DNA from: Actinomycetales bacterium
GTDB taxonomy: Bacteria; Actinomycetota; Actinomycetes; S36-B12
NCBI GenBank assembly: GCA_016125355.1
Contig: WGLX01000009.1
Span: 1-64,000, forward strand
DNA: 64,000 nt
Reading direction: 5' to 3'
This document shows positions 21,319 to 46,099 of this stretch, piece by piece (within the stretch, counting starts at the first letter, position 1; the number at the start of each line of letters is the position of its first letter). A program made the position numbers and the translations under genes. The notes below the pieces were generated by a model, which worked only from the letters and a program-made list of their open reading frames with translations, was not told the origin of the DNA and did not search any database.

Positions 21319-21329
21319 CGGAGTAGGTC

Positions 21330-21884: not shown

Positions 21885-22585
21885 CCGACGCTCCCGTCCC
21901 GGCAGTGCCGGAGGGCGTGCACGAGCTCGACATCATCGGGGTCCGCCATGGTGCCTTCGGTGCGAGCGGCAGCGGTGACACCAGCGGCTTCGGCGGCCTC
22001 GTCGAGCCGATCGTCATGCCGGCGCCCGCGACCCGACCCTTCGGGGGCTGGTTCGACGAGGTGTCCGACGAGATCGAGCTCTCGCTCGAGGCGCGCAACC
22101 TGCCCGCCACCGGCGTGATCGAGAAGGTCGTCATCCATCGCGGCGAGATCACCTACCACGTGCGACGCGAGCACCTCGTGGCCTTCGCCACGGCGCTGCG
22201 AGACGAGCCGGGCCTGCGCTTCGAGCTGTGCCTCGGGGTCGACGGCGTGCACTACCCCGACGAGGAGGGCCGCGAGCTGCACGCGGTCTACCACTTCCTG
22301 TCGATCACTCATAACAACCGCGTCAGGGTCGAGGTGTCCGTACCGGACGGCGACCCGGTCATCCCGTCGCTCGTCGCGCTGTTCCCCACGCTGGACTGGC
22401 ACGAGCGCGAGACGTGGGACATGTTCGGCATCGTCTTCGAGGGCCATCCCGCCCTGACCCGCATCCTCATGCCCGACGACTGGCCGGGCCACCCGCAGCG
22501 GAAGGACTACCCGCTCGGCGGCATCCCGGTCGAGTTCAAGGGCGCCACCACCCCACCCCCGGACCAGCGGAGGTCGTACAACTGA
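21881..22585 (+). CDS. nuoC: NADH-quinone oxidoreductase subunit C
   Basis: A 234-residue 30-kDa subunit. The signature [19 protein letters not shown] near residue 175 is intact. The N-terminal 70 residues form a Gly/Pro-rich extension that is longer than in enteric enzymes but usual in actinobacteria. The ATG overlaps the nuoB stop and the stop overlaps the nuoD start (TGATG). Confidence 0.95.
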
Positions 22586-23973
22586 TGTCGACCGACAATG
22601 TCACCTACAGCTCCGCCGACGAGCCGGACGTCGAGTACTCCTCGGCTGACGAGGGCCCCGACGCCTACTCCGGCTCCTACGAGACCACCGAGGGGCGCGT
22701 CTACACCGTGTCCGGCGGCGACTGGGACACCATCTCCCCGGCACCGGAGGGCGAGCACGACCGCATCGTCGTGAACATGGGTCCCCAGCACCCGTCGACG
22801 CACGGCGTCCTCCGCCTGATCCTCGAGATCGACGGCGAGAACGTCACCGAGGCCCGCGCCGGCATCGGCTACCTGCACACCGGCATCGAGAAGAACATGG
22901 AGTTCCGCTCGTGGGTGCAGGGCGTCACCTTCGTGACGCGCATGGACTACCTCACGCCCATGTTCAACGAGACCGCCTACTGCCTCGCCGTCGAGAAGGC
23001 CCTCGACATCACCGAGCAGGTCCCCGAGCGCGCCACCGTCATCCGCGTCATCATGATGGAGCTCAACCGGATCGCCTCCCATCTGGTGGCGCTGGCCACG
23101 GGCGGCATGGAGCTCGGTGCCCTCACCGCGATGGAGTTCGGCTTCCGCGAGCGCGAGCTCGTTCTCGACATCTTCGAGATGGTCTCGGGCCTGCGGATGA
23201 ACAGCGCATACGTGCGTCCGGGCGGCGTGGCCCAGGACCTGCCGCCGGGCGGGGAGCAGAAGATCCGCGACACGATCCCGCTGCTGCGCAAGCGGCTGAA
23301 GGACACCGCCGACCTGCTTGTCGACAACAGCATCTGGATGGGACGCACCGTCGGCATCGGCTACCTCGACCTCGCCGGCTGCATGGCGCTGGGCATCACC
23401 GGCCCGATCCTCCGGTCGACCGGCCTGCCGTACGACCTGCGGAAGGCGCAGCCGTACTGCGGCTACGAGAACTACGAGTTCGACGTCATCACCAAGGACA
23501 CGTCCGACGTCTACGGCCGCTTCCTGATCCGCATCGAGGAGATGGAGCAGTCGCTGCGCATCGTCGAGCAGGCACTGGACCGGCTCAAGCCGGGCCCGGT
23601 GATGGTCGAGGACAAGAAGATCGCGTGGCCCGCCCAGCTGTCGATCGGCAGCGACGGCCAGGGCAACTCCCCGGAGCACATCCAGAAGATCATGGCCGAG
23701 TCGATGGAGGCACTCATCCATCACTTCAAGCTGGTCACCGAGGGCTTCCGGGTCCCCACGGGTCAGGTGTACGCCGCGGTGGAGTCGCCCAAGGGCGAGC
23801 TCGGCTGCCACCTCGTCAGCTCCGGAGGTACCCGTCCCTACCGGGTGCACTTCCGGGATCCGTCGTTCACCAACCTCCAGTCGGTCGCGGCGATGTCCGA
23901 GGGCAGCATGATCTCGGACGTCATCGCCGCCGTCGCCAGCATCGACCCCGTCATGGGCGGCGTGGACCGCTAG
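22585..23973 (+). CDS. nuoD: NADH-quinone oxidoreductase subunit D
   Basis: A 462-residue 49-kDa subunit that lines the quinone pocket with Nuo[16 protein letters not shown] near residue 65 carries the conserved quinone-contacting histidine. The first 55 residues are an acidic, Ser/Tyr-rich extension with a duplicated YSSADE motif. The C-terminus DPVMGGVDR is complete. Confidence 0.96.
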
Positions 23974-23996
23974 GAACCAGGAAGCGAAGAGACCAG

Positions 23997-24677
23997 ATGC
24001 CAATCAGCGACACCACTCGCGACCAGCTCCAGGAGCTCGTCGCGCGCTACCCGCGCCCGCGCTCCGCCCTGATGCCGATGCTGCACCTGGTCCAGAGCCT
24101 CGAGGGTGAGGTGACCTCCGAGGGCATCGCCGCGTGTGCGGAGGCGGCCGGCGTCAGCGCCGCGGAGGCCACGGCGGTGGCCTCCTTCTACACGATGTAC
24201 AAGCGCAAGCCGGTGGGCAAGCACCACATCGGCGTCTGCACCAACACGATGTGCGGCCTCCTCGGCGGCGACGAGGTGTACGCGGCGGTGAGCGAGCGTC
24301 TCGGCGTCGGCCACGACGAGCCGACCGCCGATGGCGAGTTCTGGCTCGAGCGCATCGAGTGCCAGGCGGCCTGCACGCACGCGCCCGTCATGACGGTGGA
24401 CTGGGAGTACATGGACGACGTCACCCCGACGTCCGCCGTCGACGTCATCGACCGACTGGCCCGCGGCGAGGAGGTCCGCTCCACCCGGGGCCCCGTGATC
24501 CGCGACTTCCGCGCCTCCGAGCACAGCCTGGCGTTCCCCGAGGACGGGCTCGCGGCTGAGGGCACGCCCGTGGACGAGAAGATGCTGGTCGGCCTGAGGC
24601 TCGCGAGGGAGCTGGGCATGGCCGCGCCGGACGCCCCGGTGGCCGGCACCACCAACGACGCCGGACAGGAGGGCTGA
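23997..24677 (+). CDS. nuoE: NADH-quinone oxidoreductase subunit E
   Basis: A 226-residue 24-kDa subunit. The four [2Fe-2S] N1a ligands are in CTNTMC (near residue 80) and CQAAC (near 122). A C-terminal extension after about 170 resembles that of other actinobacterial NuoE proteins. ATG 23997 is chosen after AGGAAGCGAAGAG; the long upstream in-frame reading is nuoD in another frame. Confidence 0.94.
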   Translation: MPISDTTRDQLQELVARYPRPRSALMPMLHLVQSLEGEVTSEGIAACAEAAGVSAAEATAVASFYTMYKRKPVGKHHIGVCTNTMCGLLGGDEVYAAVSERLGVGHDEPTADGEFWLERIECQAACTHAPVMTVDWEYMDDVTPTSAVDVIDRLARGEEVRSTRGPVIRDFRASEHSLAFPEDGLAAEGTPVDEKMLVGLRLARELGMAAPDAPVAGTTNDAGQEG

Positions 24678-24679
24678 CC

Positions 24680-25981
24680 GTGGCGCTGACCCCCGTCATC
24701 ACCGAGCACTGGGACGATCCGGAGCTCTTCACCATCGACGGCTACCGGCGACACGGAGGGTACCGCGCGCTGGAGTCCGCGATCCATCAGGACCCCGACG
24801 CGCTCATCGCCCTGGTGAAGGACTCCGGACTCCGTGGCCGCGGTGGCGCAGGCTTCCCCACCGGCCTGAAGTGGAGCTTCGTCCCGCAGGACGGCAAGCC
24901 GCACTACCTCGTGGTCAATGGCGACGAGTCCGAGCCGGGTGCCTGCAAGGACATCCCGATCATGCTTGCCAACCCGCACTCGCTGGTCGAGGGCGTCATC
25001 ATCACCTCGTACGCGATCCGCGCGAACCACGCCTTCATCTACATCCGCGGTGAGGTGCCCGAGGCCATCCGTCGCGTGGCGAATGCCGTGCGTGAGGCGC
25101 GCGAGGCCGGCTACATCGGCAAGAACATCCTCGGCAGCGGGTTCGACCTCGACGTGGTCGTGCACGCCGGGGCCGGCGCCTACATCTGCGGCGAGGAGAC
25201 CGCGCTGCTCGACTCGCTCGAGGGCTTCCGCGGGCAACCCCGGCTCAAGCCGCCGTTCCCCGCGGTGGCCGGCCTCTACGCGGCGCCGACCGTCATCAAC
25301 AACGTCGAGACGATCTGCAACATCCCGTACCTCGTCGATCGGGGCGTGGACTGGTTCCGGCAGTTCGGCACGGAGAAGTCCCCGGGCTTCAAGGTCTTCG
25401 CGATCTCCGGTCACGTCAACCGACCCGGCATCTACGAGGCCCCGCTCGGCATCACGATGCGTGAGCTGCTCGACTACGCCGGGGGCATGCGCGATGGACG
25501 CGAGGTCAAGTTCTGGCTTCCGGGCGGGTCGTCTGTCCCGATGCTCACCGCGGATCACCTCGACCTCCCGCTGACCTACGAGGACATCGCGGCCGCCGGC
25601 AGCATGCTCGGGACGGGCACGCCGATGCTCTTCGACGACACCGTGAGCGTCGTGAAGGCGGTCACCCGGTGGCTGGAGTTCTACAAGCACGAGTCCTGCG
25701 GCCAGTGCACCCCGTGCCGTGAGGGCACCTACTTCATCACCGGAACCCTCGAGCGGTTCGAGGAGGGGCACGGCACGGACAGGGAGATGGACACCCTCGC
25801 CGACCTGTGCGGGCAGATCTCCGGCCGCTCCTTCTGCGCCCTCGGCGATGCCGCGGCGACTCCCTACCCGGCCGCCATGAAGTACTTCCGCGACGAGTTC
25901 GTCGCGGCGACCAGCACGCCGGTGGACCAGCAGTTCGACCCAGCGGCGTCCTACGTGTTCTCGGGAGCGATTGCGCGATGA
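24680..25981 (+). CDS. nuoF: NADH-quinone oxidoreductase subunit F (NADH-binding)
   Basis: A 433-residue 51-kDa subunit. The NADH/FMN site [15 protein letters not shown] near residue 55, and the N3 [4Fe-4S] ligands [13 protein letters not shown] near 338 plus the Cys of RSFCALGD near 383, are all present. It receives hydride from NADH. GTG start two bases after nuoE; the stop overlaps nuoG by four bases. Confidence 0.97.
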
Positions 25982-28362
25982 CCGTGACCAACAACGCCGG
26001 CCCAGGCAGTGACGTCGAGGTCAGGACCGACCTCATCACCGTCGTCATCGACGGGGTGGAGATGCAGGTGCCCAAGGGCACCCTCGTCATCCGCGCTGCC
26101 GAGCAGCTCGGCATCGAGATCCCGCGCTTCTGCGATCACCCGCTCCTGGAGCCGGTGGCGGCGTGCCGGGCCTGCCTCATCGAGGTCGAGGGCATGCCCA
26201 AGCCGCAGCCCGCGTGTGCGCAGGTGCTGTCCGACGGGATGAACGTCAAGACCCAGTACTCCTCCGATGTCGCCCGGGAGGCGCAGGAGGGGGTCATGGA
26301 GTTCCTGCTCCTCAACCACCCCCTCGACTGCCCGGTCTGCGACAAGGGCGGCGAGTGCCCGCTGCAGAACCAGGCCATGTCCGTCGGACGACCGGACACG
26401 CGGTTCGACGGTGCGAAGCGGGAGTTCGAGAAGCCCATCAACGTCAGCGCCCAGATCCTTCTGGACCGGGAGCGCTGCGTGTCGTGCGCACGCTGCACCC
26501 GCTTCGCCGACCAGATCGCGGGAGATCCGTTGATCGACCTGCTGGCCCGCGGCGCCAAGCAGCAGGTCGGGACCGCCGATGACGTGCCGTTCGACTCCTA
26601 CTTCTCCGGCAACACCGTCCAGATCTGCCCGGTGGGTGCGCTGACCAGCGCGTCCTACCGATTCCGGTCCCGCCCGTTCGACCTGGTCTCCGTGCCGACG
26701 ACGTGCGAGCACTGTGCGTCGGGCTGCTCGTTGCGGACTGACTACCGACGCGGCGTGGTGGCCCGTCGGCTCGCGTGGGACGACCCCGAGGTCAACGAGG
26801 AGTGGAACTGCGACAAGGGTCGCTACGCGTTCGCGTACCTGGCCGAGGGCCGGATCGACAGCCCGATGATCCGCGAGAACGGCGAGCTGCGGGTGGCCTC
26901 GTGGCCCGAGGCCATCGCGGTGGCCGCGCAGGGCCTGGCCGATGCCAAGGGCCGGGCGGGCGTGCTGGTCGGCGGCCGCAGCACCGTCGAGGACGCCTAT
27001 GCGTACGCGCGCTTCGCACGCACCGTGCTGGGCACGGATGACATCGACTTCCGGGTCCGCCAGACCTCGGACGAGGAGACCCAGTTCCTCGCCTCCTCGG
27101 TGGCGGGAGCGCCCGTCACGACGACCTACGACGGCCTCGAGGGGGCGCCAGCAGTCCTGCTGGTCTCGTTCGAGCCCGAGGACGAGTCCCCGATCGTCTT
27201 CCTGCGGCTTCGCAAGGCGGCCAAGCGAGGCACCGCAGTGGTGTCCGTCGCCCCCTTCGCCAGTGCGGGCCTGACCAAGATGTCCGGCCGGCTGCTCCCC
27301 ACGCGGCCCGGCGCCGAGGCTGCGGCGCTGCGCGCCCTGCCCGAGGACGTCCGTGCGCAGCTCGGCGAGGACGGCGCCGTCATCATGGTCGGCGAGCGCG
27401 CGGCCGGTTCGGCCGGCACGCTGTCCGCAGCGGTTGAGCTGGCCCAGCAGACCGGTGCACGGCTCGCGTGGGTTCCGCGACGCGCGGGTGAGCGCGGGGC
27501 CCTCGACGCAGGAGCCCTTGCCGGCCTCCTCCCCGGCGGGCGTCCGCTGGAGGACGCGCAGGCCCGAGCGCAGGTCGCCGAGGCCTGGGGCATCGAGCCC
27601 GGGGAGCTGCCCGGCGGGAACGGACGAAGTGGGCAGGCCCTGCTCGAGGCCGCCCGTGACGGAGTGTTCGACGCCCTCCTCGTGGGCGGCGTCGAGCTGG
27701 CCGACTTCCCCGATCCGGCGCTGGCGACGGCGGCGATCGACGCCGCCGGATTCGTGGTCTCCCTCGAGAACCACCACTCCGCCGTCACCCAGCGTGCCGA
27801 TGTCGTCCTCCCGGTGGCCGTGGTCACCGAGAAGTCCGGCACGTTCATCGACTGGGAGGGTCGCCCCCGTCCCTTCAGCCAGGTCTTCCGCGACGCGCTG
27901 ACCATGAGCGATGCGCGCGTCCTGTCGATGATCGCCAGCGCGGCCGGCGTCACCGCTCCCGGCGACGTCCGCTCCCTGCGAGCCGAACTCGGCGGGCTGG
28001 GCCCCTGGTCCGGTGGTCGCTTCACCGCCCCTGCGGAGGCGTCCGGCGAGGCTCCTGCTGGGACGGTCCTCGCATCGTGGCGGCTGCTCCTCGACGCAGG
28101 GCTCATGCAGGAGGGCAACCCGCATCTCGCCGCCACCGCCCGGCCGACGGTCGCCGTCGTGTCGAAGGCGACGGCTGCCGCGCTGGGTGAGACCGCCACG
28201 GTCACCGGACCTGCGGGTTCGGTCACGCTGCCCGTCGTCGCCGCGGACATCGCGGACGGCGTGGTGTGGGTCCCGATGAACTCCCCTGGCTGTCACATCC
28301 ACGCGGACCTCGGTGTCGTGCCGGGAGCATCCGTCCAGCTGTCGGCAGGAGGCGCCGCATGA
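25978..28362 (+). CDS. nuoG: NADH-quinone oxidoreductase subunit G
   Basis: A 794-residue 75-kDa subunit. It has an N-terminal [2Fe-2S] domain ([15 protein letters not shown]), the His-Cys3 cluster region ([14 protein letters not shown]), N4/N5 ligands CVSCARC and CPVGA, and an extra N7-type motif CEHCASGC with a downstream Cys in WNCDKG. The N7 motif occurs in some bacterial NuoG proteins and not in mitochondrial ones. The C-terminal molybdopterin-like domain is degenerate, as usual. Confidence 0.95.
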
Positions 28363-29708
28363 CCGGCTCGCAGTTCGGCCTCTTCGGCACCGATCCGTGG
28401 TGGCTGGTGATCCTGAAGGTCGTCGCGATCTTCGCCATGCTGGTGCTGCTCACGCTGTTCACCATCTGGTGGGAGCGACGCGTCGTCTCGCGGATGCAGA
28501 ACCGCATCGGGCCCAACCGCACCGGTCCGCAGGGCCTTCTCCAGTCGCTCATGGACGGCGTGAAGCTGGCGCTGAAGGAGGAGATCATCCCCAAGACCGC
28601 GCACCTCGCGGTCTACTGGGTGGCACCCATCGTCTCCGCCACCGCTGCCTTCATGGCCTTCGCCGTGATCCCGTTCGGCCCGACGGTCTCCATCTTCGGC
28701 GTCGAGACGCCGCTGCAGCTGACCGACTTCCCGGTGTCGGTGCTGTACGTGCTCGCCATCGCCTCCATCGGCATCTACGGCATCGTGCTCGCGGGCTGGT
28801 CCTCGGGTTCGACCTACCCGCTGCTAGGCGGCCTGCGCTCGAGCGCGCAGATGATCTCGTACGAGATCGCCATGGGCTTGGCGTTCGTGGCGGTGTTCCT
28901 CTACGCAGGCTCCATGTCGACGTCGGAGATCGTCGCCGCGCAGCAGCCGATCTGGTTCGCCGTCATCCTGCTGCCCTCGTTCCTGATCTACACGACGGCG
29001 ATGGTCGGCGAGACCAACCGCGCGCCCTTCGACCTGCCGGAGGCCGAGGGCGAGATCGTCGGCGGCTTCCACACCGAGTACTCGTCCCTGAAGTTCGCGC
29101 TGTTCTTCCTCGCCGAGTACATCAACATGGTCACCGTGTCGGCCCTGGCCACCACCTTGTTCCTGGGTGGCTGGATGGCCCCCTGGCCGCTGTCCCTGTG
29201 GGAGGGCGCCAACCAGGGCTGGTGGCCGATGCTCTGGTGGCTGATCAAGGTGCAGATCTTCATCTTCGTGTTCATCTGGCTCCGCGGCACGCTGCCACGG
29301 ATGCGGTACGACCAGTTCATGAAGTTCGGGTGGAAGGTGCTGATCCCGGTCTCGATCGCCTGGATCATGATCGTCTCGGTCGCTCGCGTTCTCCGCAACG
29401 ACGTGACCATGTCGACCACCGAGATCCTCGTCTACGGCGCGATCCTGATCGCGTTGCTGCTGGTCGTCTCCTGGATCATGCAGTCGCGCGCCGATCGACG
29501 CGAGCGGGCCCTCGAGGAGGAGCTGGAGCGCAAGCGCACGGCGACCTTCGATCCCATGGAGGCCAACTACCCCGTGCCCCCGCTGCCGGGACAGTCCTTC
29601 ACGTTCACCTCGCGCCGCGCGGCCGCCCAGGGCACCACCATCGTGCAGGAGCCGCCGGCCACCGACACACCGGGCGACGATTCGCAAGGGGAGGAGTCCC
29701 ATGCCTGA
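28359..29708 (+). CDS. nuoH: NADH-quinone oxidoreductase subunit H
   Basis: A 449-residue membrane subunit with eight or nine helices. [18 protein letters not shown] near residue 47 and the quinone-channel loop [15 protein letters not shown] near 215 are diagnostic. The C-terminal 60 residues form a charged cytoplasmic extension ([17 protein letters not shown]). The 3' end overlaps nuoI by eight bases. Confidence 0.96.
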
Positions 29709-30258
29709 GATGCCGCAGGCCGTACGCGGCTTCGGTGTCACCTTCCTGACGATGTTCAAGAAGGTGGTGACCGAGCAGTACCCGGAGCAGAAGGTGCCGA
29801 CCGCGCCGCGCTACCACGGACGTCATCAGCTGAACCGCTGGGCCGACGGCCTGGAGAAGTGCGTGGGCTGCGAGCTGTGCGCCTGGGCCTGCCCCGCGGA
29901 CGCCATCTACGTCCAGGGCGCGGACAACTCCGACGAGGAGCGGTTCTCCCCGGGCGAGCGCTACGGCCGCGTCTACCAGATCAACTACTTGCGCTGCATC
30001 TTCTGCGGGCTGTGCATCGAGGCCTGCCCGACGCGTGCGCTCACCATGACGAACGAGTACGAGCTCGCTGATGACAGTCGGGCCAAGCTGATCTACGAGA
30101 AGCAGGACCTGCTCGCACCTCTCCTGCCCGGCATGGTCCAGCCGCCGCACGACATGGTGCCGGGCATGACCGAACGCGACTACTACGCGAACAAGGTCAC
30201 GGGCTCGTCTCCCGAACAGGTCACCACCGGGACGACCTCCGCGGAGGTGACCTCGTGA
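29701..30258 (+). CDS. nuoI: NADH-quinone oxidoreductase subunit I
   Basis: A 185-residue ferredoxin-like subunit with two [4Fe-4S] motifs, [12 protein letters not shown] near residue 53 and [12 protein letters not shown] near 99. These are clusters N6a and N6b that pass electrons to NuoB. It is full-length, with the amphipathic N-terminal region missing from the shorter paralogue at 44788. Confidence 0.97.
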
Positions 30259-31028
30259 CCGACGTCAACACCGGCGAGCAGGTGGTCTTCTGGATCTCCG
30301 CCATTCTCGCCGTCGCCGGGGCCCTCGGCATGATCCTGTCCCGCAAGGCCGTGCACAGCGCACTGTGGGTCGCCCTCACGATGATCAATCTCGCCATCCT
30401 GTACGTGGCCAATTCGGCGCCGTTCCTCGGCATGGTTCAGGTGATCGTCTACACGGGCGCGGTCATGATGCTGTTCCTGTTCGTGCTCATGGTCGTCGGC
30501 GTCGACTCGTCCGACTCTCTCATCGAGACCATCAAGGGCCAGCGGCTCGCCGCGATCCTGCTGGGGCTCGGGCTGGGAATCCTCATCATCTGGGGCATCG
30601 GTCACGGGCTCGAGGGCGCCACGTCCGTCGGACTGGATGCAGCCAACGCGAAGGACGGCGGCAACGTCCAGGGCATCGCCCACCTCGTCTTCACGCGGTA
30701 CCTGCTGGTCTTCGAGCTCACGTCGGGGCTGCTCATCACGGCCGCCATGGGTGCGATGGTGCTGGCCCACCGTGAGCGGTGGACGCCGGCACCGACCCAG
30801 CGGGAGCTGGCGACGGCCCGGTTCCGGCAGGAGGGCCATCCCGGCAACCTGCCCAACCCCGGTGTCTACGCCCGCCATAACGCGGTCGACACGCCGGCGC
30901 TGCTGCCCGACGGTGGAACCAGCGAGATCAGCGTTCCTGGACCGGTGCGGGCACGCGCGGACGAGCGATCCATCGACCCGATGGATCTCGAGGAGGTCCG
31001 CGAGATCACGGAGGGCAGGAGCGAATGA
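30255..31028 (+). CDS. nuoJ: NADH-quinone oxidoreductase subunit J
   Basis: A 257-residue subunit with five transmembrane helices in the first 170 residues, including [18 protein letters not shown], the family's pi-bulge helix near 58-75. A hydrophilic C-terminal tail of about 80 residues follows. GTG start overlapping nuoI; stop overlapping nuoK. Confidence 0.95.
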
Positions 31029-31324
31029 ACCCCGCCAACTACATCGTGCTCTCCGCGGTGCTGTTCAGCATCGGCGCGATCGGCGTGCTGGTACGCCGCA
31101 ACGCGATCGTCGTCTTCATGTCCATCGAGCTGATGCTGAATGCCGCGAACCTGGCGTTCGTGTCGTTCGCCCGCATGAACGGCAACCTCGACGGGCAGAC
31201 GGTGGCGTTCTTCGTCATGGTGGTGGCTGCCGCCGAGGTCGTGGTCGGCCTTGCCATCATCGTCACGATCTTCCGCACCCGGCGAACGGCGTCGATCGAC
31301 GAACCGAACCTCCTGAAGTACTGA
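31025..31324 (+). CDS. nuoK: NADH-quinone oxidoreductase subunit K
   Basis: A 99-residue three-helix subunit. The proton-channel glutamates are present in [15 protein letters not shown] (near 34) and in [11 protein letters not shown] (near 70). The ATG overlaps the nuoJ stop. A 46-nt gap, the longest inside the operon apart from nuoD-nuoE, separates it from nuoL. Confidence 0.97.
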
Positions 31325-31370
31325 TGGCCCACGCGACTTCTCACGACACGACGAACGATAGGAACGCACA

Positions 31371-33266
31371 GTGACTGAGCTCATGCCCGCCGAGGGGGTG
31401 TTCTCGCTCATCTGGTTGCTCATCGCCCTGCCGCTGGCCGGATCAGCCGTGCTGATCTTCGGCGGTCGCCGCACCAACTCCTGGGGGCCGTACCTGGCCA
31501 TCCTCATGGTGGTCGGCTCGGCCGCACTCGGCTGGACGATGCTGCTGTCGATGATGCAGAACTCCCCGGAGCAGCGCACCTTCGACCAGACGCTCTACTC
31601 CTGGGTGTTCGCCGGGTCCTTCCAGGCCGACATGGCCTTCCAGCTGGACCAGCTGTCCATGGTGTTCGTCCTCCTCATCACCACCGTCGGCGCGTTGATC
31701 CACATCTACTCGCTGGGCTACATGGCCCATGACGCCAACCGGCGCAAGTTCTTCGGCTACCTCAACCTGTTCGTCGCGGCGATGCTCATCCTCGTCCTGG
31801 CGAACAACTACCTGCTGCTCTACGTGGGCTGGGAGGGCGTGGGCCTGACGAGCTACCTGCTCATCGGCTTCTGGCTTCACAAGCCGGCGGCTGCCGCAGC
31901 CGCGAAGAAGGCCTTCATCATCAACCGCGTCGGTGATGTCGGCCTGAGCCTGGCGATCATGTTGCTGTTCGTCACCTTCGGCTCGGTCTCCTTCCAGGAC
32001 GTGTTCGGCGTGGCCGACCAGGCCAGCGAGGGCACGCTCACCGCGATCGGCCTGCTCCTCCTGCTCGCCGCCGCCGGCAAGTCCGCGCAGTTCCCGCTGC
32101 AGGCCTGGCTGCTCGACGCTATGGAGGGCCCGACGCCCGTCTCCGCCCTGATCCACGCCGCCACGATGGTCACCGCCGGCGTCTACCTCATCGTCCGCAG
32201 CAACGTGGTCTTCACGGCCGCCGAGTGGGCGGCCACGGCCGTGATCATCGTCGGCGTCATCACGATGTGGATGGGCGCGATCATCGGCTCGGCGAAGGAT
32301 GACATCAAGAAGTCACTCGCCGGATCCACGATGAGCCAGATCGGCTACATGATCACCGCCGCCGGACTCGGCCCGATCGGCTACGTGTTCGCGATCTTCC
32401 ACCTGCTCACGCACGGCGTCTTCAAGGCCGGCCTGTTCCTCGGTGCCGGGTCAGTCATGCACGGCATGCGCGACAACGTCAACATGCGCCGGTACGGCGC
32501 GCTGATGGGCCTCATGGGAATCACGGCCGTGACCTTCATCATCGACTACCTCGCGATCATCGGCATCCCGCCGTTCGCAGGCTTCTGGTCGAAGGACTCG
32601 ATCATCCATGCGGCCTTCGAGAAGAGCACCCTCGTCGGCATCCTCGCGATGCTCGCCGCCGGGCTCACCGGGTTCTACATGACCCGCATGGTGGCCATGA
32701 CCTTCTTCGGCAAGGCCCGCTGGGAGGACGACGAGCACCCGCACGAGTCACCCAAGGTCATGACCATCCCGCTGATCATCCTCGCGATCGGCGCGACCTT
32801 CCTCGGTATGGCGCTGCTCTTCTGGGGCAACATCAAGACCTGGCTCGAGCCGGTGACCGGCCTCGAGGAGGTGGAACTGCCGCTGCCCGAGCTCGCCTAC
32901 GGCGGGATGACGCTGGTGCTGGTGATCATCGGGTCCGTGATCGCGTGGGTCATGTACGCACGCCGATCCGTTCCCGTCGAGGCCCCGCGTGGCTCGTGGC
33001 TCACGCGCGCGGCCCGCAACGAGCTGTACGGAAACGAGGTCAACGACGTCCTGGTCGTGCGCCCCTCGTACCACGCGTCGCGTGCCCTGGTGTGGTTCGA
33101 CAACCGGGGGGTCGACGGACTGGTCAACGGGACCGCCGCCTTCGTCGGCGGCCTGTCCGGCAGGCTCAGGCGCTACCAGACAGGTTTCGCCCGTTCGTAT
33201 GCGTTGTCGATGGTGGGTGGCGCCGTCTTGGTCGTCCTCGCCCTGGTTCTGGTGAGGGCCTCGTGA
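31371..33266 (+). CDS. nuoL: NADH-quinone oxidoreductase subunit L
   Basis: A 631-residue antiporter-like subunit with about 15 helices and the long lateral-helix region at the C-terminus. [18 protein letters not shown] near residue 146 and [19 protein letters not shown] near 248 carry the conserved Glu and the loop residues of the proton channel. GTG 31371 has AGGAACG upstream; the in-frame ATG 31383 is an alternative. Confidence 0.95.
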
Positions 33267-34816
33267 CTACCTTTCCCTGGCTGACCACCCTGATGGTGGT
33301 GCCGCTCGTCGGCAGCATCATCGTGGCCCTGCTGCCGTCGGCGCGCGCGGCGCTGGCCAAGCAACTGGCGCTGGTGTTCTCGCTGGCGACCCTGGTCCTG
33401 ACCGTGCTCATGGCACTGCAGTTCCAAGGGGACTCCACCGAGCCGTTCCAGTTCGTCGAGTCGCATCCGTGGATCCCGGCGTTCGGCATCTCGTACTCGG
33501 TGGGCGTCGACGGCATCGCCCTGGTGCTCGTGGCGCTGGCCGCGACCCTCGTACCCATCGTGGTGCTCGCGGGCTGGAACGATGTCGACGACAGCCGCGG
33601 CAGCGTGAAGGGCTACTTCGCGCTGATCCTCGTCCTCGAGACGCTGATGATCGGCGTGTTCTCGGCCACCGATGTCTTCCTGTTCTACGTGTTCTTCGAG
33701 GTCATGCTCATCCCCACGTACTTCCTGATCGGGCGGTACGGAGGGCTCCAGCGCTCGTACGCCGCGGTGAAGTTCCTGCTGTACAGCCTCGTGGGCGGCC
33801 TGTTCATGCTCGCGGCGCTGATCGGCCTGTTCGTGGTGTCGGCCCAGCTGACTGGTCAGGGCACCTTCGACTTCCTGTCGCTGGCGGGGCTGGACATCGA
33901 CGAGAACACGCAGAAGCTGCTGTTCGTCGGCTTCTTCCTCGCGTTCGCCGTCAAGGCGCCGCTGTGGCCCTTCCACACCTGGCTGCCCGACGCCGCCGCC
34001 GAGGCCAAGGTCGGGACGTCCGTCCTGCTGATCGGCGTTCTCGACAAGGTCGGCACCTTCGGCATGATCCGCTACCTGCTGCCGATCTTCCCCGCGGCCT
34101 CGGACTTCTACGCGCCCTTCGTCATCGCGCTGGCCCTCATCGGCATCTTCTACGGCGCATACGTGGCGCTGGGACAGAACGACATGAAGCGGCTGTTCGC
34201 CTACTCGTCGATGTCGCACTTCGGCTTCATCACGCTCGGCATCTTCGTCTTCACGACCACCGGCCAGAGCGGCTCGGTGGTCTACATGGTCGCCCACGGC
34301 CTGTCGACGGCGGCGCTGTTCCTGACGGCGGGCTTCCTCATGAGCCGGTACCACGGGTCGAGCCTGATCTCGGACTACGGCGGCGTGAACAAGGCTGCCC
34401 CCGTGCTGTCGGGCTTCTTCATGATCGCGGCGCTGTCGTCCCTGGCGCTGCCGGGCATGGTCTCCTTCGTCGGCGAGTTCATGGTCCTGCTGGGCTCGTT
34501 CCAGCGGTACCTGTGGATCGGCGCGATCGCCACGCTGGGCATCGTGATCACCGCGGCCTACGTCCTTCGCCTCTACCAGAAGTCCATGACAGGCCCGCTC
34601 AAGCCGGAGCTCGAGGGGATGCGTGACCTCGGCGGCCGGGAGGTCACCGCCCTGGTGCCCGTCGCGGCCCTGATCATCGTGCTCGGCCTGTTCCCGGCAC
34701 CCCTGCTCAATGTCATCAACCCGGCCGTCCAGCAGACGATGACGAGCGTGGGAGCCACCGATCCGGCACCGACCATCCAGTCAGCCGGCCTTCCTGCGGA
34801 AGGAGCTGACCAGTGA
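33263..34816 (+). CDS. nuoM: NADH-quinone oxidoreductase subunit M
   Basis: A 517-residue antiporter-like subunit with about 14 helices. [20 protein letters not shown] near residue 142 and [20 protein letters not shown] near 238 hold the conserved Glu and channel residues. GTG start overlaps the nuoL stop; the end overlaps nuoN. Confidence 0.95.
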
Positions 34817-36384
34817 GCGCGCTGGCCACCGTTGCCACGGCTGACAACGTGAGCACGTTCCAGATGCCCAGCATCAACTACTACGCGATCACGCCGATCC
34901 TCATCATGTTCGGTGCGGCCGTCGTGTCCGTGCTCGTGGAGGCCTTCCTGCCGCGCGGAGCACGCCGCCCGGTGCAGCTGGTCCTGGTGCTCGGCTCGCT
35001 GGCAGCCGCCTTCATCGTCACCGTCGACCTCCGCGGCACGCGGCTGGTCACGGGCGATGGTGCGATCGCGGTCGATGGGCCCACCCTGCTGCTGTGGGGC
35101 GCCCTGCTCGTGGTCGCCTTCCTTGCTGCTCTGCTGTTCGCCGAGCGCTCGATCGACCCGCTGGGTGATGCCTTCGCCCCGCGGGCCTCGACGCTGCCCG
35201 GGTCGGTCGATGAGCAGGAGTTCACCCGTCGGGGCTTCCTGCAGACCGAGATCTGGCCCTTCCTGCTGTTCTCGGTGACGGGCATGCTGGCCTTCATCGC
35301 GGCGAACGACCTGCTCATGATGTTCGTCGCCCTCGAGGTCATGTCCCTGCCCCTGTACCTCCTGGCCGGCATGGCCCGTCGTCGCCGCCTGCTCTCGCAG
35401 GAGGCGGCCCTGAAGTACTTCCTGCTGGGGGCGTTCTCATCGGCGTTCTTCCTGTACGGCGCGGCGATGCTGTACGGCTACAGCGGCTCGGTCGGCCTGG
35501 TCGAGATCGCGGACACCCTGTCGGGCAAGACTGCCGAGGGCACGCTGGTGTTCATCGGCGTCGCGTTGCTGACGGTGGGCCTGCTGTTCAAGATCGCGGC
35601 CGTGCCGTTCCACCAGTGGGCGCCGGACGCGTACCAGGGGGCACCCACGCCGGTGACCGGCTTCATGGCGGCCACCGTCAAGATCGCCGCCTTCGGCGCG
35701 CTGCTCCGCGTCCTCTACGTGGGCCTTGGTGGCCTGCGCTGGGACTGGGAGCCCATGCTGTGGGTCATCGCGGCACTCACCATGCTCGTCGGCTCGATCA
35801 TCGCGATCACGCAGACCGACATCAAGCGGATGCTCGCGTACTCCTCCGTGGCCCAAGCGGGCTTCATCCTGATCGGCGTCATGGCGGCCAGCCCGCAGGG
35901 CCTGGGCAGTGCGATCTTCTACCTCGTGGCCTACGCGTTCACGACGATCGGGACGTTCGCCGTGGTGTCCATGGTGCGGGACGCGTCGGGCGAGGCGACC
36001 CACCTGTCGGCGTGGGCGGGCCTGGGCAAGAATTCGCCGGTCGTGGCCGCGGTCTTCTCGCTGTTCATGCTGTCGCTGGCCGGCATCCCGCTGACCAGCG
36101 GCTTCGTCGCCAAGTTCGGCGTGTTCGCGTCGGCGATCGACGCGGGCAACACCTGGATCGTGATCATCGGTGTCATCGCGAGCATCATCGCAGCGTTCTT
36201 CTACGTCCGCGTGATCGTCCTGATGTACTTCGCGGATCCCGGCCCCGACACGGCCTCCGTGGTGGTCCCGTCCGCCTTCACCACGATCGCCCTGACGGCC
36301 TCGGCCGTGATGACCATCGCCCTCGGCATCTTCCCGCAGTGGCTGCTGGACATCATCGGTCAAGCGGGCGTCTTCATCCGGTAG
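34813..36384 (+). CDS. nuoN: NADH-quinone oxidoreductase subunit N
   Basis: A 523-residue antiporter-like subunit with about 14 helices. MFVALEVMSLPLYLLAGM near residue 170 and FHQWAPDAYQGAPTPVTGF near 268 match the family. It completes the 14-subunit set in the canonical order A-N. The next gene begins 12 bases on, behind its own -10-like element. Confidence 0.95.
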   Translation: MSALATVATADNVSTFQMPSINYYAITPILIMFGAAVVSVLVEAFLPRGARRPVQLVLVLGSLAAAFIVTVDLRGTRLVTGDGAIAVDGPTLLLWGALLVVAFLAALLFAERSIDPLGDAFAPRASTLPGSVDEQEFTRRGFLQTEIWPFLLFSVTGMLAFIAANDLLMMFVALEVMSLPLYLLAGMARRRRLLSQEAALKYFLLGAFSSAFFLYGAAMLYGYSGSVGLVEIADTLSGKTAEGTLVFIGVALLTVGLLFKIAAVPFHQWAPDAYQGAPTPVTGFMAATVKIAAFGALLRVLYVGLGGLRWDWEPMLWVIAALTMLVGSIIAITQTDIKRMLAYSSVAQAGFILIGVMAASPQGLGSAIFYLVAYAFTTIGTFAVVSMVRDASGEATHLSAWAGLGKNSPVVAAVFSLFMLSLAGIPLTSGFVAKFGVFASAIDAGNTWIVIIGVIASIIAAFFYVRVIVLMYFADPGPDTASVVVPSAFTTIALTASAVMTIALGIFPQWLLDIIGQAGVFIR

Positions 36385-40790: not shown

Positions 40791-41834
40791 TCAGCTGACG
40801 ACCCAGGTGTCCGGACCGTTGAGCAGCGCCTGGAGGTCGCCCTCGCCCTTGTTGGCCTGCACCTCGGCCAGCTGATCGCGCACCAGCCTGTCGTACGACG
40901 GCCGCTGGATGTCGCGGAAGATACCGATCGGGGTGTTCTCCAGCGTGCGCGGGTTGTACAGGCGAGACAGCGCGAACGCGAGACCCGGGTCCTTGGCGTG
41001 CGAGTCGTGCTTGATGATCGCGTCCTCGCCGACCTCGGACACGTTGACGACGGCAATATGGCCCTCGTCGGTGCGGATGACGCCCTTCTCCATGTCCTTG
41101 CCGAAGCGAATCGGCTGACCGTCCTCGAGGCGCATCATGACGTCGTCACGTGTGTCGTTGTCCTTCAGCGGCTCCCACGCGCCGTCGTTGAAGATATTGC
41201 AGTTCTGGTAGATCTCGACGAGCGAGGCGCCCTCGTGATGGGCCGCCGCGCGGAGCACCTCCGTCATGTGCTTGCGATCGGAGTCGATCGTTCGAGCGAC
41301 GAAGGTGGCCTCAGCGCCCAGCGCGAGGGAGACGGGATTGAACGCGTAGTCCAGCGAGCCCTCGGGCGTGGACTTCGTGATCTTGCCCTGCTCGGAGGTG
41401 GGGGAGTACTGGCCCTTGGTCAGGCCGTAGATCCGGTTGTTGAAGAGCAGGATCTTGAGGTTGACGTTTCGCCGCAGGGCATGGATGAGGTGGTTGCCGC
41501 CGATGCTGAGCGCGTCGCCGTCACCGGTGACGACCCAGATCTGCAGGTCCGGACGCGACACGGCGAGACCGGTCGCGATGGCCGGGGCGCGGCCGTGGAT
41601 GGAGTGCATGCCGTACGTGTTCATGTAGTACGGGAAGCGCGACGAGCAGCCGATGCCCGAGATGAAGACGATGTTCTCCTTGGCCAGCCCGAGCTCGGGC
41701 AGGAAGCCCTGGACGTTGGACAGGATCGAGTAGTCACCGCAGCCCGGGCACCAGCGCACCTCCTGGTCGGACTTGAAGTCCTTCGCGGAGAGGGTGGCTT
41801 CTGACTTCGGGATCAGGTCGAGGTAGGTAGTCAT
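40791..41834 (-). CDS. korB: 2-oxoglutarate:ferredoxin oxidoreductase, beta subunit
   Basis: A 347-residue ThDP-binding subunit. VRWCPGCGDYSIL near residue 28 and ISGIGCSSRFPYY near 60 carry the [4Fe-4S] cysteines. WVVTGDGDALSIGGNH near 100 is the ThDP-Mg2+ motif. With KorA it oxidatively decarboxylates 2-oxoglutarate to succinyl-CoA and reduces ferredoxin. It starts seven bases after korA. Confidence 0.93.
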   Translation of the reverse strand: MTTYLDLIPKSEATLSAKDFKSDQEVRWCPGCGDYSILSNVQGFLPELGLAKENIVFISGIGCSSRFPYYMNTYGMHSIHGRAPAIATGLAVSRPDLQIWVVTGDGDALSIGGNHLIHALRRNVNLKILLFNNRIYGLTKGQYSPTSEQGKITKSTPEGSLDYAFNPVSLALGAEATFVARTIDSDRKHMTEVLRAAAHHEGASLVEIYQNCNIFNDGAWEPLKDNDTRDDVMMRLEDGQPIRFGKDMEKGVIRTDEGHIAVVNVSEVGEDAIIKHDSHAKDPGLAFALSRLYNPRTLENTPIGIFRDIQRPSYDRLVRDQLAEVQANKGEGDLQALLNGPDTWVVS

Positions 41835-41841: not shown

Positions 41842-43707
41842 TCACATGCTCTCGGCGGCTTCGGTGATGGCGGTCACCAGTTCGGACGACTTGAACGGCA
41901 TCCCTCGGACCTGGTTGAGGCCCTGGATGTCGACGAGGTACTTGGCGCGCAGCAGCATGGACAGCTGCCCGAGGTTCATCTCGGGAACGATGACCTTGTC
42001 GTACGAGCGGAGCACCTCGCCGAGGTTCGACGGGAACGGGTTGAGGTGGCGCAGGTGCGCCTGGGCGACCTTGACGCCAGCGCGCCGGGAGATCTGGCAC
42101 GCGGCCCCGATGGGTCCGTAGGTCGAGCCCCAGCCGAGGATCAGCAGGCGCGCATCGCCATCGGGATCGTCGACCTCGACGTCGGGGATCGTCTTGGCGA
42201 TCGCCTCGATCTTCCCCTGGCGCAGATGCACCATCGTGTCGTGGTTCTGGGCGTCGTAGGAGATGTTGCCCGGGCCATCGGCCTTCTCGAGGCCGCCGAT
42301 GCGGTGCTCGAGGCCCTTGGTGCCCGGTACCGCCCACGGGCGCGCGAGGGTCTCAGGATCGCGCAGGTAGGGCCAGAACTCCTCGTTGCCGTCGGCCTTG
42401 GTGTGGTTCGGCGCGGTGGCGAAGTTCGGGTCGATGTGCGGCAGGTCGTCGGCCTGCGGGATCTTCCACGGCTCGGACCCGTTGGCGAGGTAGCCGTCCG
42501 AGAGCAGGAACACCGGGGTGCGGTACTCGATGGCGACCCGCGCGGCCTCGATGGCTGCGTAGAAGCAGTCCGAGGGCGACTTGGGGGCGATGACCGGGAC
42601 GGGCGACTCGCCATTGCGACCGAACATCGCCTGCAGGAGATCGGACTGCTCGGTCTTGGTGGGCAGTCCGGTGGACGGGCCACCGCGCTGGACGTCGACG
42701 ATGATCAGCGGCAGCTCGAGCGAGACGGCCAGGCCGATCGCCTCCGACTTCAGGGCGATGCCGGGCCCGGACGTGGTCGTGACGGCCAGTGCCCCGCCGT
42801 AGGAGGCGCCGATGGCGCCGCCGATGCCCGCGATCTCGTCCTCGGCCTGGAAGGTGGTGACGCCGAAGTGATGGTTCTTGGCCAGCTCGTGCAGGATGTC
42901 GGATGCCGGGGTGATCGGGTAGGACCCGAGGAACAGCGGCAGGCCGGAGCGCTTGGCCGCGGCGATGAGGCCATAGGCCAGCGCCGGGTTGCCCATGATG
43001 TTGCGGTAGGTGCCCGGCGGGAGGTCCGCCGCCTTGGCGACCTCGTACTGCACCGAGAAGATCTCGGTGGTCTCACCGAAGGACCAGCCCGCCTCGAAGG
43101 CGGCAAGGTTCGCAGCGAGGATCTCCGGCTTGTGGCCGAACTTCTTCTGCAGGAAGCGCCGGGTTCCCTCCGCGGGCCGCGAGTAGAGCCACGACAGCAG
43201 GCCGAGCGCGTACATGTTCTTCGACCGCTGTGCCTCCTTCTTCGTGATGTCGAACCCCTTGAGGGCCTCGACCGTCTGGGAGGTCAGCGCAATGGCGTGC
43301 ACGTTGTAGCCGTCGAGGGAGCCGTCCTCGATCGGATTGGTCTCGTAGCCGACCTTCTCCAGATTGCGCTTGGTGAACTCGTCGGTGTTGATGATGAGAT
43401 CGGCACCGCGCGGCAGGTCCTTGAGATTGGCCTTCAGGGCCGCCGGGTTCATCGCCACCAGCACGTTCGGGTCATCGCCCGGCGTGGTGATGTCGTGATC
43501 GGCGAAGGCGAGCTGGAAGGCCGAGACGCCGCCGATGGTCCCTGCTGGCGCGCGGATCTCGGCGGGGAAGTCGGGAAGGGTCGACAGGTCGTTGCCCATC
43601 CCTGCGGTCTCGGAGGTGAACCGGTCGCCGGTCAACTGCATGCCGTCGCCGGAATCCCCAGCGAAACGGATGACGACGCGATTGAGAGTGACGAGCTGCT
43701 TGCTCAC
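41842..43707 (-). CDS. korA: 2-oxoglutarate:ferredoxin oxidoreductase, fused gamma/alpha subunit
   Basis: A 621-residue protein. The N-terminal gamma domain begins VVIRFAGDSGDGMQLTGDRF; the alpha domain (from about 215) includes YPITPASDILHELAK and FQAEDEIAGIGGAIGAS. This fused form with KorB is the oxygen-tolerant actinobacterial type. GTG 43707 is chosen because AGGAAG precedes it; upstream in-frame codons to 43815 give a basic, non-homologous lead. A -10-like TAGTCT on the minus strand (43801-43796) implies a leader of about 85 nt. Confidence 0.92.
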   Translation of the reverse strand: MSKQLVTLNRVVIRFAGDSGDGMQLTGDRFTSETAGMGNDLSTLPDFPAEIRAPAGTIGGVSAFQLAFADHDITTPGDDPNVLVAMNPAALKANLKDLPRGADLIINTDEFTKRNLEKVGYETNPIEDGSLDGYNVHAIALTSQTVEALKGFDITKKEAQRSKNMYALGLLSWLYSRPAEGTRRFLQKKFGHKPEILAANLAAFEAGWSFGETTEIFSVQYEVAKAADLPPGTYRNIMGNPALAYGLIAAAKRSGLPLFLGSYPITPASDILHELAKNHHFGVTTFQAEDEIAGIGGAIGASYGGALAVTTTSGPGIALKSEAIGLAVSLELPLIIVDVQRGGPSTGLPTKTEQSDLLQAMFGRNGESPVPVIAPKSPSDCFYAAIEAARVAIEYRTPVFLLSDGYLANGSEPWKIPQADDLPHIDPNFATAPNHTKADGNEEFWPYLRDPETLARPWAVPGTKGLEHRIGGLEKADGPGNISYDAQNHDTMVHLRQGKIEAIAKTIPDVEVDDPDGDARLLILGWGSTYGPIGAACQISRRAGVKVAQAHLRHLNPFPSNLGEVLRSYDKVIVPEMNLGQLSMLLRAKYLVDIQGLNQVRGMPFKSSELVTAITEAAESM

Positions 43708-43795
43708 GGGCTTCCTCAGTTGGCGAAGGACTCTTGGGGTCCGGTCGTTCGCATTGTGTGCTCTCGGCCGTCGGTGCTTTGTTGGACGTCCTAAT

Positions 43796-43801
43796 AGACT
43801 A
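43796..43801 (-). promoter_or_regulatory. -10-like element of korA
   Basis: Minus-strand TAGTCT (continuing ATTAGG) about 90 nt upstream of the korA GTG. Unlike most genes here, korA would therefore have a leadered mRNA with a Shine-Dalgarno sequence. Confidence 0.35.
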
Positions 43802-43889
43802 CACCTGCCGTTCACGGCGGTGCACAGGCCAAACGGTCGGATTACCTCGCGTCGCGAATCGCGGATCGGCGCCTGCCGCGACCGCTGAA

Positions 43890-43901: not shown

Positions 43902-44318
43902 ATGACCGAGATCGCGTGGCTGCGGCTGGCCGCGGACCCGGGTGTCCGCGTGGGCAGCCTGCCCCTGGCCTGCTGCGCTCTGGAGGTCGAGTCGGCCGTC
44001 CGGCAGGGTGCCTTGCGCGCAGAGACGGCGGCTGACGGCCACCCCCGCGAGACGGTCCTGCTCGTGGCGGGCACCGTCACCGCACCACTGGCCCCGCTCG
44101 TCCGCATGGTCGTCGACCAGGCCCCGGCCGGCACCCGCGTGGTGGCCTTCGGCGCGTGCGCCACGTCCGGTGGCCCGTACTGGGATGCGCCCAGCGTCCG
44201 CCCGGGAGCCGATGCGGCCGGGGCCGCGGGCGTCCCCATCGACGTCTACGTGCCCGGCTGCCCGCCCCCTCCGGAGGCCCTCGTGGCCGCGATCACCGGC
44301 CGCGAGGTCGCCCCGTGA
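43902..44318 (+). CDS. Short NuoB-like [4Fe-4S] protein
   Basis: A 138-residue paralogue of NuoB (the true NuoB at 21330 has 184). All four N2-type cysteines are kept: tandem C24-C25 (LACCALEVE), C86 (GACATSGG) and C120 (VPGCPPPPEA). It lacks the N-terminal segment and the MAAGG/RFD region that line the quinone pocket, and the sequence is otherwise divergent. First gene of a tightly overlapping operon with NuoC-like and NuoI-like genes. It probably carries an iron-sulfur cluster in a small soluble or peripheral electron-transfer complex; partners beyond the operon are unknown. Confidence 0.75.
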   Translation: MTEIAWLRLAADPGVRVGSLPLACCALEVESAVRQGALRAETAADGHPRETVLLVAGTVTAPLAPLVRMVVDQAPAGTRVVAFGACATSGGPYWDAPSVRPGADAAGAAGVPIDVYVPGCPPPPEALVAAITGREVAP

Positions 44319-44791
44319 TCGCCGATGACATGCTCGAGGTCGCTGTGGCCGAGTGGGCCGAGGCGGCCCGGGAGGCGCGCGATGGCGGGCTGCCCTTCCT
44401 CGAGCTGCTGACCGTGGTGGATCGGGGCGACGAGCTTGACGTGGTCGCGCGGATGAGCGACGCGTCAGGCAGGCTTTCCCTCGGACTGATGACGAGGGTG
44501 GCGGCCGACGCCCCGCGGATCGAGAGCCTGGCCGCGGTCCTGCCGGCAGCCTCATGGCACGAGCGCGAGGTCGCTGAGATGTTCGGCGTCGTCTTCGACG
44601 GCCATCCCGATCCGCGACCGCTGCTCCTCCGCGGGACGGCGGGCGCACCTCCCCTGCGACGCGGCACACCCCTCGCGGTCCGGCTGGAGCGGGCGTGGCC
44701 CGGGGAGGTCGAACCGGCGAGTCGACGGCGATCGCGGCAGCAGCTTCCGCCGGGCGTCCGCCCCGAGTGGCTCCCGGGAGGCTCCGCGTGA
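44315..44791 (+). CDS. Short NuoC-like protein
   Basis: A 158-residue paralogue of NuoC. The signature SWHEREVAEMFGVVFDGHPD near residue 80 aligns with [19 protein letters not shown] of the main NuoC. The N-terminal NuoC domain is present but shortened, and the C-terminus is Arg/Pro-rich. GTG start overlapping the NuoB-like stop by four bases; stop overlapping the next gene by four bases. Likely a scaffold partner of the NuoB-like protein, as NuoC and NuoB lie together in complex I and in group 4 hydrogenases. Confidence 0.75.
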   Translation: MIADDMLEVAVAEWAEAAREARDGGLPFLELLTVVDRGDELDVVARMSDASGRLSLGLMTRVAADAPRIESLAAVLPAASWHEREVAEMFGVVFDGHPDPRPLLLRGTAGAPPLRRGTPLAVRLERAWPGEVEPASRRRSRQQLPPGVRPEWLPGGSA

Positions 44792-45120
44792 CCGCGCCGA
44801 CGCCGCACCACTTCATCGCCCTCATCGAGGATGCGTGCACCAGCTGCCTCATCTGCGTGCAGGAGTGCCCGACGTGGTGCATCAGCCTGGACAGTCACCA
44901 CGAGGAGGTCTCGGAGCCGGGAGCGAGGCGACCTCGCACCGTGAGCGTGCTCGATGACTTCCGCATCGACTACGGCCTGTGCATGTACTGCGGGATCTGC
45001 GTCGACCTGTGCCCGTTCGACGCCCTCGAATGGCGGCCACGCGTCGGCTACCAGGCGGAGGGACGCGATGATCTCGTCCACGACATCGCCCGGCTCGACG
45101 GAGGGACATCCGATGGCTGA
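44788..45120 (+). CDS. NuoI-like 2[4Fe-4S] ferredoxin
   Basis: A 110-residue protein with two [4Fe-4S] motifs, CTSCLICVQECP (residues 17-28) and CMYCGICVDLCP (65-76), in the NuoI spacing. It lacks the amphipathic N-terminus of NuoI (185 residues at 29701) and so may be soluble. GTG start overlapping the NuoC-like gene. It could accept electrons from the KorAB-reduced ferredoxin pool or serve as an acceptor itself; this is inference from position. Confidence 0.78.
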   Translation: MTAPTPHHFIALIEDACTSCLICVQECPTWCISLDSHHEEVSEPGARRPRTVSVLDDFRIDYGLCMYCGICVDLCPFDALEWRPRVGYQAEGRDDLVHDIARLDGGTSDG

Positions 45121-45583
45121 CGCGCTCACGCCCATGGATCCGCTCGAGGAGCGACGGTTGGCCTCCGAGCTGTTCAACCTCGTCTGGACGCTCCTCGAGC
45201 TCGACGAGCGCACGCCCGAACAGGACGACGCCATGATCCACGCGGCGCATGCCAGCCGGTGGCACTGGGCCCAGGTGGGCAGCCCGCAGCATCGGGCCAT
45301 CGGGGAGTGGCAGTGCAGCCGCGTCTACGCGACCCTCGGGCGCCCCGAGCCCGCCCTGCACCACGCGCGGCGCTGCCTCGACCTAAGCGCCGTGGACGGG
45401 GTGGACCCGTTCGTCGAGGCCTCGGCGCATGAGGCCATGGCGCGAGCCCTCGCGGTGGCGGGTGATGTCGACGGTGCCACCGCCGAGCGCAATCTCGCGT
45501 ACGGGCTGGCGGTGGCGCTGGAGGACGACGACGACCGCGCCGTCATCGAGGCGGACCTGGCCACGCTGCCGTTGGAGGGATGA
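45113..45583 (+). CDS. Helical, TPR-like protein of unknown function
   Basis: A 156-residue, almost wholly alpha-helical protein rich in Ala, Glu and Asp. Segments such as RVYATLGRPEPALHHARRCL and ARALAVAGDVDGATAERN look like degenerate tetratricopeptide repeats. No enzyme motif and no cysteine pattern. ATG 45113 lies inside the NuoI-like gene (eight-base overlap), so it is translationally coupled to the mini-operon; it may be an assembly or adaptor protein, or merely a passenger. Confidence 0.65.
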   Translation: MADALTPMDPLEERRLASELFNLVWTLLELDERTPEQDDAMIHAAHASRWHWAQVGSPQHRAIGEWQCSRVYATLGRPEPALHHARRCLDLSAVDGVDPFVEASAHEAMARALAVAGDVDGATAERNLAYGLAVALEDDDDRAVIEADLATLPLEG

Positions 45584-45607: not shown

Positions 45608-46099
45608 CTAGCGGTAGTTGTCGAACTGCACCGCGAAGTCGAGGTCGGCGCCCTTGACGAGCGCGATCACGGCCTGCAGGTCGTCGCGGCTCTTGCTCGT
45701 GACCCGGAGCTCGTCGCCCATCACCTGGGTCTTGACCGACTTGGGCCCCTCGTCCCGGATGAGCTTGGACAGCTTCTTCGCCTGCTCCTGGGAGATGCCG
45801 GCCTTGAAGGTGCCGGAGATCTTCGCCTCCTTGCCGGACTGCCGGACGTCGTCCGCCTCGAAGGCCTTCAGGCTGATGCCCCGCTTGATCAGCTTCTCCC
45901 GGAAGACCTCGAGGGCGGCCTTGGCACGCTCCTCCGTCGAGGAGGCGATCTCCACGGACAGCTCACCCTTCCAGGTCACCGTGGTGTCGGTGTTCTTGAA
46001 GTCGAACCGCGTGGCCAGTTCCTTGGCGGCCTGGTTGAGGGCGTTGTCCGCCTCCTGTCGGTCGACCTTGGACACGATGTCGAAGCTGCTGTCAGCCAT
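45608..46099 (-). CDS. YajQ-family nucleotide-binding protein
   Basis: A 163-residue protein with the YajQ N-terminus [20 protein letters not shown] and C-terminal [17 protein letters not shown]. YajQ proteins have two ferredoxin-like folds; some bind cyclic di-GMP, others RNA or nucleotides. Role here unknown. The ATG start has a near-perfect Shine-Dalgarno, AAGGAGGTCC. It converges with the helical gene at 45113. Confidence 0.9.

Follow-up and report, generated by a model that had tools for sequence, protein, structure and literature searches.

Three linked genes and an unlinked nuoD-like gene of an actinobacterium: probably a free-standing Q-module left from a second complex I (Nuo2)

The window is the whole stretch of 64,000 nucleotides from an Actinomycetales bacterium that was analysed. 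It encodes a main complex I and, separately, short proteins resembling NuoB, NuoC and NuoI (B2, C2 and I2), beside which the corresponding membrane genes A2, H2 and J2-N2 were not found. What can such a set be, and where does it come from? The evidence points to a soluble enzyme, present in many actinobacteria, that would be the electron-carrying core of a second complex I. The features of the window are given in Table 1.

Table 1. Features at and around the B2-C2-I2 locus. Positions are those of the window. The korA limits are those of the open reading frame as listed; the real start is probably further in. The limits of the main nuo operon are approximate and come from matches.
Feature	Position	Strand	Length (aa)	Matches and remarks
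main nuo operon (separate complex I)	~20983..36348	+		A, B, C, D, H-N by tblastn; F, G by Pfam
korB	40791..41834	-		TPP_enzyme_C
korA	41842..43815	-		POR_N, POR, PFOR_II; divergent neighbour of B2
B2, NuoB-like	43902..44318	+	138	PF01058 E 3.3e-18
C2, NuoC-like	44315..44791	+	158	PF00329 E 1.7e-23
I2, NuoI-like	44788..45120	+	110	Fer4 E 1.3e-12 and NuoI models
TPR-like protein	45113..45583	+	156	best Pfam E 0.0035, sub-threshold
yajQ-like gene (DUF520)	45608..46099	-		PF04461 E 3.5e-56; syntenic marker downstream

Open reading frames and Pfam matches bear out the original prediction of three overlapping NuoB-, NuoC- and NuoI-like genes with all cluster cysteines, divergent from korAB on the opposite strand; the main nuo genes that it placed in the window are also there. 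B2 carries the four ligand cysteines of an N2-type cluster (CC, GAC, PGC), C2 the WHERE motif and I2 two 4Fe-4S motifs (CxxCxxCxxxC); the N-terminal membrane-side segment of I2 is absent. The overlaps are of 4 nt (B2/C2, the GTG start of C2 overlapping the B2 stop), 4 nt (C2/I2) and 8 nt (I2/TPR-like gene). The PDB relatives of B2 are complex I NuoB/PSST chains and those of C2 are complex I 30-kDa chains. B2, C2 and I2 score under the listed NCBIfam cut-offs and are therefore regarded as divergent paralogues. The fourth gene is coupled by its overlap, as predicted, but its TPR label is weak. Of 29 further B2 loci, all have C2 after B2 and 28 have I2 (in the exception, L029, the contig stops); only one (L009, same genus) has a relative of the TPR-like gene behind I2. 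Thus B2-C2-I2 recurs across relatives but the proposed B-C-I-TPR set does not. The TPR-like gene was rejected as a core part; it is a lineage-specific passenger outside the conserved module. The TPR-like protein is 77% identical to its nearest relative (L088:9118-9582), where B2 is 56% identical: a slowly changing passenger.

The genome of the window (3.34 Mb, 45 contigs, 96% complete) contains two NuoB (PF01058 search) and, according to a PF00346 search, the main NuoD and a second NuoD-like gene (D2) on contig C41. The claim that no NuoD paralogue accompanies the set therefore holds at the locus but not genome-wide. PF00146, a search that could overlook weakly matching NuoH, matched one NuoH and no second one in this genome. 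Of the NuoD and NuoH paralogues of a normal second complex, which the original prediction had named as evidence against itself, the first exists and the second was not found; a normal second complex I elsewhere in the genome is rejected on the single NuoH, despite the second NuoD. Across the order, NuoH matches 114 of 119 genomes, most of them once; a distant second NuoH (E 1e-29 to 5e-40) is found in nine and NuoH is in two pieces in four. One further genome of the order has a second strong NuoH-like match (G117:C27:5853-6833, E 1.1e-115), which may reflect contamination or duplication.

D2 is intact, encodes 374 aa and has a Rossmann/DUF2520 gene as its divergent neighbour. All 21 D2 loci examined in the order have a DUF2520 relative at a distance of at most 6 kb, as do 6/12 named loci at a distance of at most 8 kb; the other six have none in the available flank, some flanks being short. 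The best matches of D2 are complex I subunits. Its three cysteines are all single; since it lacks the two CxxC motifs, a [NiFe] hydrogenase large subunit was rejected.

Relatives of B2 and D2 are widespread across the 119 genomes of the order. The sample of the class comprises 296 genomes, each at least 90% complete; most genomes surveyed are MAGs. D2 was found in 116 and B2 in 112: both in 111, neither in 179 and one only in 6 (D2 without B2 in G002, G066, G136, G159 and G287; B2 without D2 in G135). The co-occurrence has a one-sided Fisher p of 3e-74, a value that ignores relatedness among genomes. Among the 80 top-scoring stretches of 566 confirmed, named D2 genomes include Streptomyces, Kitasatospora, Nonomuraea, Actinoallomurus, Aeromicrobium, Ornithinimicrobium, Motilibacter and one MAG titled Candidatus Nanopelagicales, which by its matching coordinates is apparently G045 of the order. 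Two MAGs titled Bifidobacterium breve (L112, L114) have D2 49% identical to that of the window; the titles look mislabelled. A single B2 search of viral contigs, made to look for a viral origin, found no relatives.

The origin of the module is indicated by Streptomyces lavendulae, in which an operon A2-B2-C2-H2-I2-J2-K2-L2-M2-N2 stands beside korA and D2 is unlinked; all genes of the operon except B2 have Pfam support. It is the published Streptomyces nuo2 with its separate nuoD2 (PMC3765725, PMC8388888), whose function is described as unclear in an excerpt of PMC9239103. The window module shares with it homologous B2 and I2, the unlinked D2, the lack of EFG genes in the operon and the side of korA on which it lies; Streptomyces nuo2 retains A2, H2 and J2-N2, whereas the lineage of the window is without them. 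B2, C2, I2 and D2 group with Nuo2 rather than with the main Nuo sequences. I2 is 51% identical to I2 of S. lavendulae (over 96 aa) against 28% to the main NuoI of the window (over 88 aa). Every D2 row falls in one group against main NuoD (support 100/100), and D2 has RH[DE]W where main NuoD has RMDY (W in 50/50 D2, Y in 11/11 main). The S. lavendulae operon has a NuoC gene between B2 and H2 (L208:9223-10566; PF00329 E 3.6e-33). Excerpts of two Streptomyces papers list no nuoC2, and in that of a third NuoC is called lacking in S. coelicolor (PMC3765725, PMC8388888, PMC9239103).

Among the neighbourhoods compared, 12 contain full nuo2-type operons. The reduced form (B2-C2 without H2-N2) was found in 20/20 loci of the order and in 14 outside it (L211, L241-L246, L248-L251, L256, L258, L259). 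L211 is from the cultured Motilibacter deserti, whose D2 is in L181. I2 was not seen in one reduced locus of the order, L095, where the contig ends. The yajQ-like gene adjoins the module in many relatives. Gaps in MAGs are unlikely to explain the missing genes: B2-C2-I2 is bounded by known flanking genes in most of the 20 loci of the order (L094, L095 and L104 reach a contig edge on the far side), and the one-contig genome G306 (L251) also shows the reduced form. Partial states are also found. Another one-contig genome, G156 (L260), keeps A2, B2, C2 and I2, together with a stump of H2 of 123 aa; L214 (Microbispora) and its tree sister L253 have no H2-N2 and carry unrelated genes between C2 and I2. 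In these two loci about 4 kb separate C2 from I2; the place taken in relatives by the membrane genes of nuo2 is here occupied by a long opposite-strand gene (about 735-759 aa). L216/L247 (same contig), L252 and L254 were left unclassified. G145 and G262 were classed by the neighbourhoods L254 (ending at a contig edge) and L253, with NuoH candidates unscored; the D2 rows L119, L120, L131 and L138 are called full from checked congeners, and L279 from two NuoH matches. In G235 (L255, G235:C1:268000-286000; L275), the single NuoB, NuoD and NuoH matches are all of Nuo2 type and the nuo2 operon is full; this genome seems to have lost the main complex I and retained Nuo2. No description of the reduced B-C-D-I form was recognised in the open-licence literature searched.

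Rooted on main NuoD, the D2 tree has the full forms at its base. All 37 old reduced D2 rows group together in a single clade (support 94/89; recovered in 96% of 200 bootstrap trees); two recent reductions, L276 and L149+L280, are nested elsewhere, among full-form rows. The D2 sequences thus put the full form first, apparently followed by one old and two recent reductions. The gene order of nuo2, canonical except for the missing D, likewise suggests that the full form is the older one. A midpoint-rooted B2-C2-I2 tree has its root among the reduced forms, the opposite of the D2 tree; it was set aside because it has no outgroup and its reduced rows are long-branched, and D2 with the main-NuoD outgroup was used. 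One locus, L104, stands beside the full forms in the B2-C2-I2 tree, but its D2 (L087) belongs to the old reduced clade. Compared with korA, the genes B2, C2 and D2 change far more rapidly.

The original prediction proposed that ferredoxin reduced by KorAB possibly serves the module. korA adjoins it in the window, and the same holds for many relatives of both full and reduced form. In the strict version of this proposal the module would be an obligate partner that accepts electrons from 2-oxoglutarate oxidation. The genomes contradict this link from both sides. korA is absent from 42/119 genomes of the order, and 16 of the 20 korA-less genomes listed (42 in all) have clear matches to both B2 and D2, with completeness of at least 95% in 10 of these 16. 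korA also occurs in genomes that have neither B2 nor D2 (e.g. G003, G004, G009, G013, G016, G018). KorAB is not required, because the module persists in those 16; as an obligate donor it was rejected, and the strict version is now barely credible, though a link may hold in single species.

Rapid divergence and partial states such as the H2 remnant of G156 could also be those of a functionless, decaying relic of Nuo2. This is very improbable given what has been kept. The B2 ligand cysteines are present in 38/38 non-full rows and the I2 cluster cysteines in 35/35; the readable rows dropped by the filter (L097, L098, L105) have them intact, by eye, so that ligands are kept in every row examined. 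By cysteine counts, the N2 and both NuoI cluster ligand sets of complex I are complete. Between close reduced pairs, dN/dS is low for all four genes: about 0.06-0.09 (B2), 0.14-0.18 (C2), 0.03-0.14 (I2) and 0.07-0.19 (D2). Only close pairs are quoted because the values of divergent pairs (medians 0.34-0.40) are unreliable through saturation; some of the pairs listed are one genome taken twice or are full forms. The unlinked genes are, moreover, retained jointly across many families. Selection on the ligands makes a relic hard to sustain, and the small electron-transfer module that had been proposed fits: conserved well beyond the genus, with Fe-S ligands kept and purifying selection.

What has been lost lies on the membrane side. 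The distance from the C2 stop to the first cluster cysteine of I2 is 35-104 nt in the 33 measurable old reduced loci. The I2 segment ending in YP..P.LP is present in 12/12 full loci and 1/35 old reduced ones (L104, without the preceding helix); it also occurs in L260 and L253, and in a changed version in L214. The N-terminus of B2 is likewise lost or altered in old reduced lineages. The B2 motif NWGRRYS follows the same pattern, with 12/12 full and 1/35 old reduced (L104), six of these 35 rows having been read by eye; it also occurs in L214, L216, L253, L254 and L260. In D2, the quinone-site columns of NuoD His and Tyr (presumably His38 and Tyr87 in Nqo4 numbering) hold Val and Trp in the window. 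As Trp is found in 50/50 D2 rows, full Nuo2 included, the site was modified before reduction and Trp is no marker of it. The loop GPQHP[SA]THG, which holds the quinone-ligand histidine of NuoD (PMC8119997, excerpt), was found in 11/11 main, 10/10 full, 3/3 recent reduced and 1/37 old reduced rows. Its histidine is kept in 29/37 old reduced rows (15/21 in the order, 14/16 outside) and is lost in the window's own genus (L004, L068). Judged from these residues, old reduced D2 may still bind quinone.

Two readings use this histidine. The first takes up the predicted subunit swap: B2-C2-D2-I2 would dock on the main membrane arm (A, H, J-N) and form a ferredoxin:quinone oxidoreductase sharing its proton pump. 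The genes for that arm lie 6-8 kb from the module in the window and next to it in many relatives, and hybrids of nuo and nuo2 products have been suggested in Streptomyces (PMC9239103, excerpt). The parts of I2, B2 and D2 that are lost or altered in the old reduced lineages are, however, those facing the membrane, while main NuoD keeps its loop in 11/11 rows, and B2, C2 and D2 diverge widely across species whose main complex is conserved; the swap is disfavoured and considered unlikely. The second reading, a module at the membrane surface that uses menaquinone or has an unrelated anchor in place of NuoH, draws on the same 29/37 rows. Against it, no conserved new neighbour was seen beside the module, whose flanks are korAB, yajQ, htpX or unrelated genes; this reading is rated as quite unlikely. 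That the membrane-side parts, including those of the unlinked D2, went when the membrane arm did argues for a soluble module and is difficult to reconcile with docking on the main complex.

The preferred reading is therefore a free-standing Q-module, made of B2, C2, I2 and the unlinked D2 and left from the actinobacterial second complex I; it is held to be probable. The ancestral Nuo2 would have had no NADH module, and its NuoD gene would already have been outside the operon. An ancestor would then have lost the membrane subunits A2, H2 and J2-N2 and kept the four peripheral ones, probably as a soluble complex. Electrons would pass from a small low-potential carrier, probably ferredoxin of more than one source, to the two 4Fe-4S clusters of I2, on to the N2-type cluster of B2 and to what was once the quinone pocket, between B2 and D2. 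There an acceptor other than quinone in the NuoH tunnel would be reduced, or the flow would be reversed. Assembly, solubility, donor, acceptor and direction are what we infer from the genes. A fuller version is put forward tentatively, at somewhat less than even chances: the membrane arm was stripped at least three times in actinobacteria and left a soluble Q-module whose pocket took on new redox chemistry on a non-membrane substrate.

If active, the module would offer a Q-module that occurs on its own in nature and consists of just four small proteins. Electron delivery to N2 could be followed in it free of proton pumping, and a redox reaction not yet described may be found there, in actinobacteria that are common. 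The recent and partial reductions (G126, G262, G156) let the order of losses be read. Complex I is usually seen as assembled from soluble hydrogenase and antiporter parts; here evolution appears reversed: the membrane arm is given up, and the quinone module stays under selection. Group 3 soluble [NiFe] hydrogenases (e.g. the F420-reducing ones) likewise lack a membrane arm; their small and large subunits are relatives of NuoB and NuoD, and they have ferredoxin-like clusters. B2 weakly matches FrhG; unlike those enzymes, D2 has no CxxC pair and best matches complex I subunits. The subunits of the set, D, C, B and I, are exactly those of the complex I Q-module (NDUFS2, S3, S7 and S8 in a table of PMC7447434). 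That Q-module is part of a membrane complex, whereas the set of the window is encoded without a partner module of its own. The complex of Desulfitobacterium and the EFG-less nuo cluster of Ca. Actinomarinales (PMC7771536) likewise have a Q-module without an NADH module; the donors proposed are ferredoxin for the former and F420 for the latter. Unlike the module of the window, both retain a membrane arm and quinone or proton coupling.
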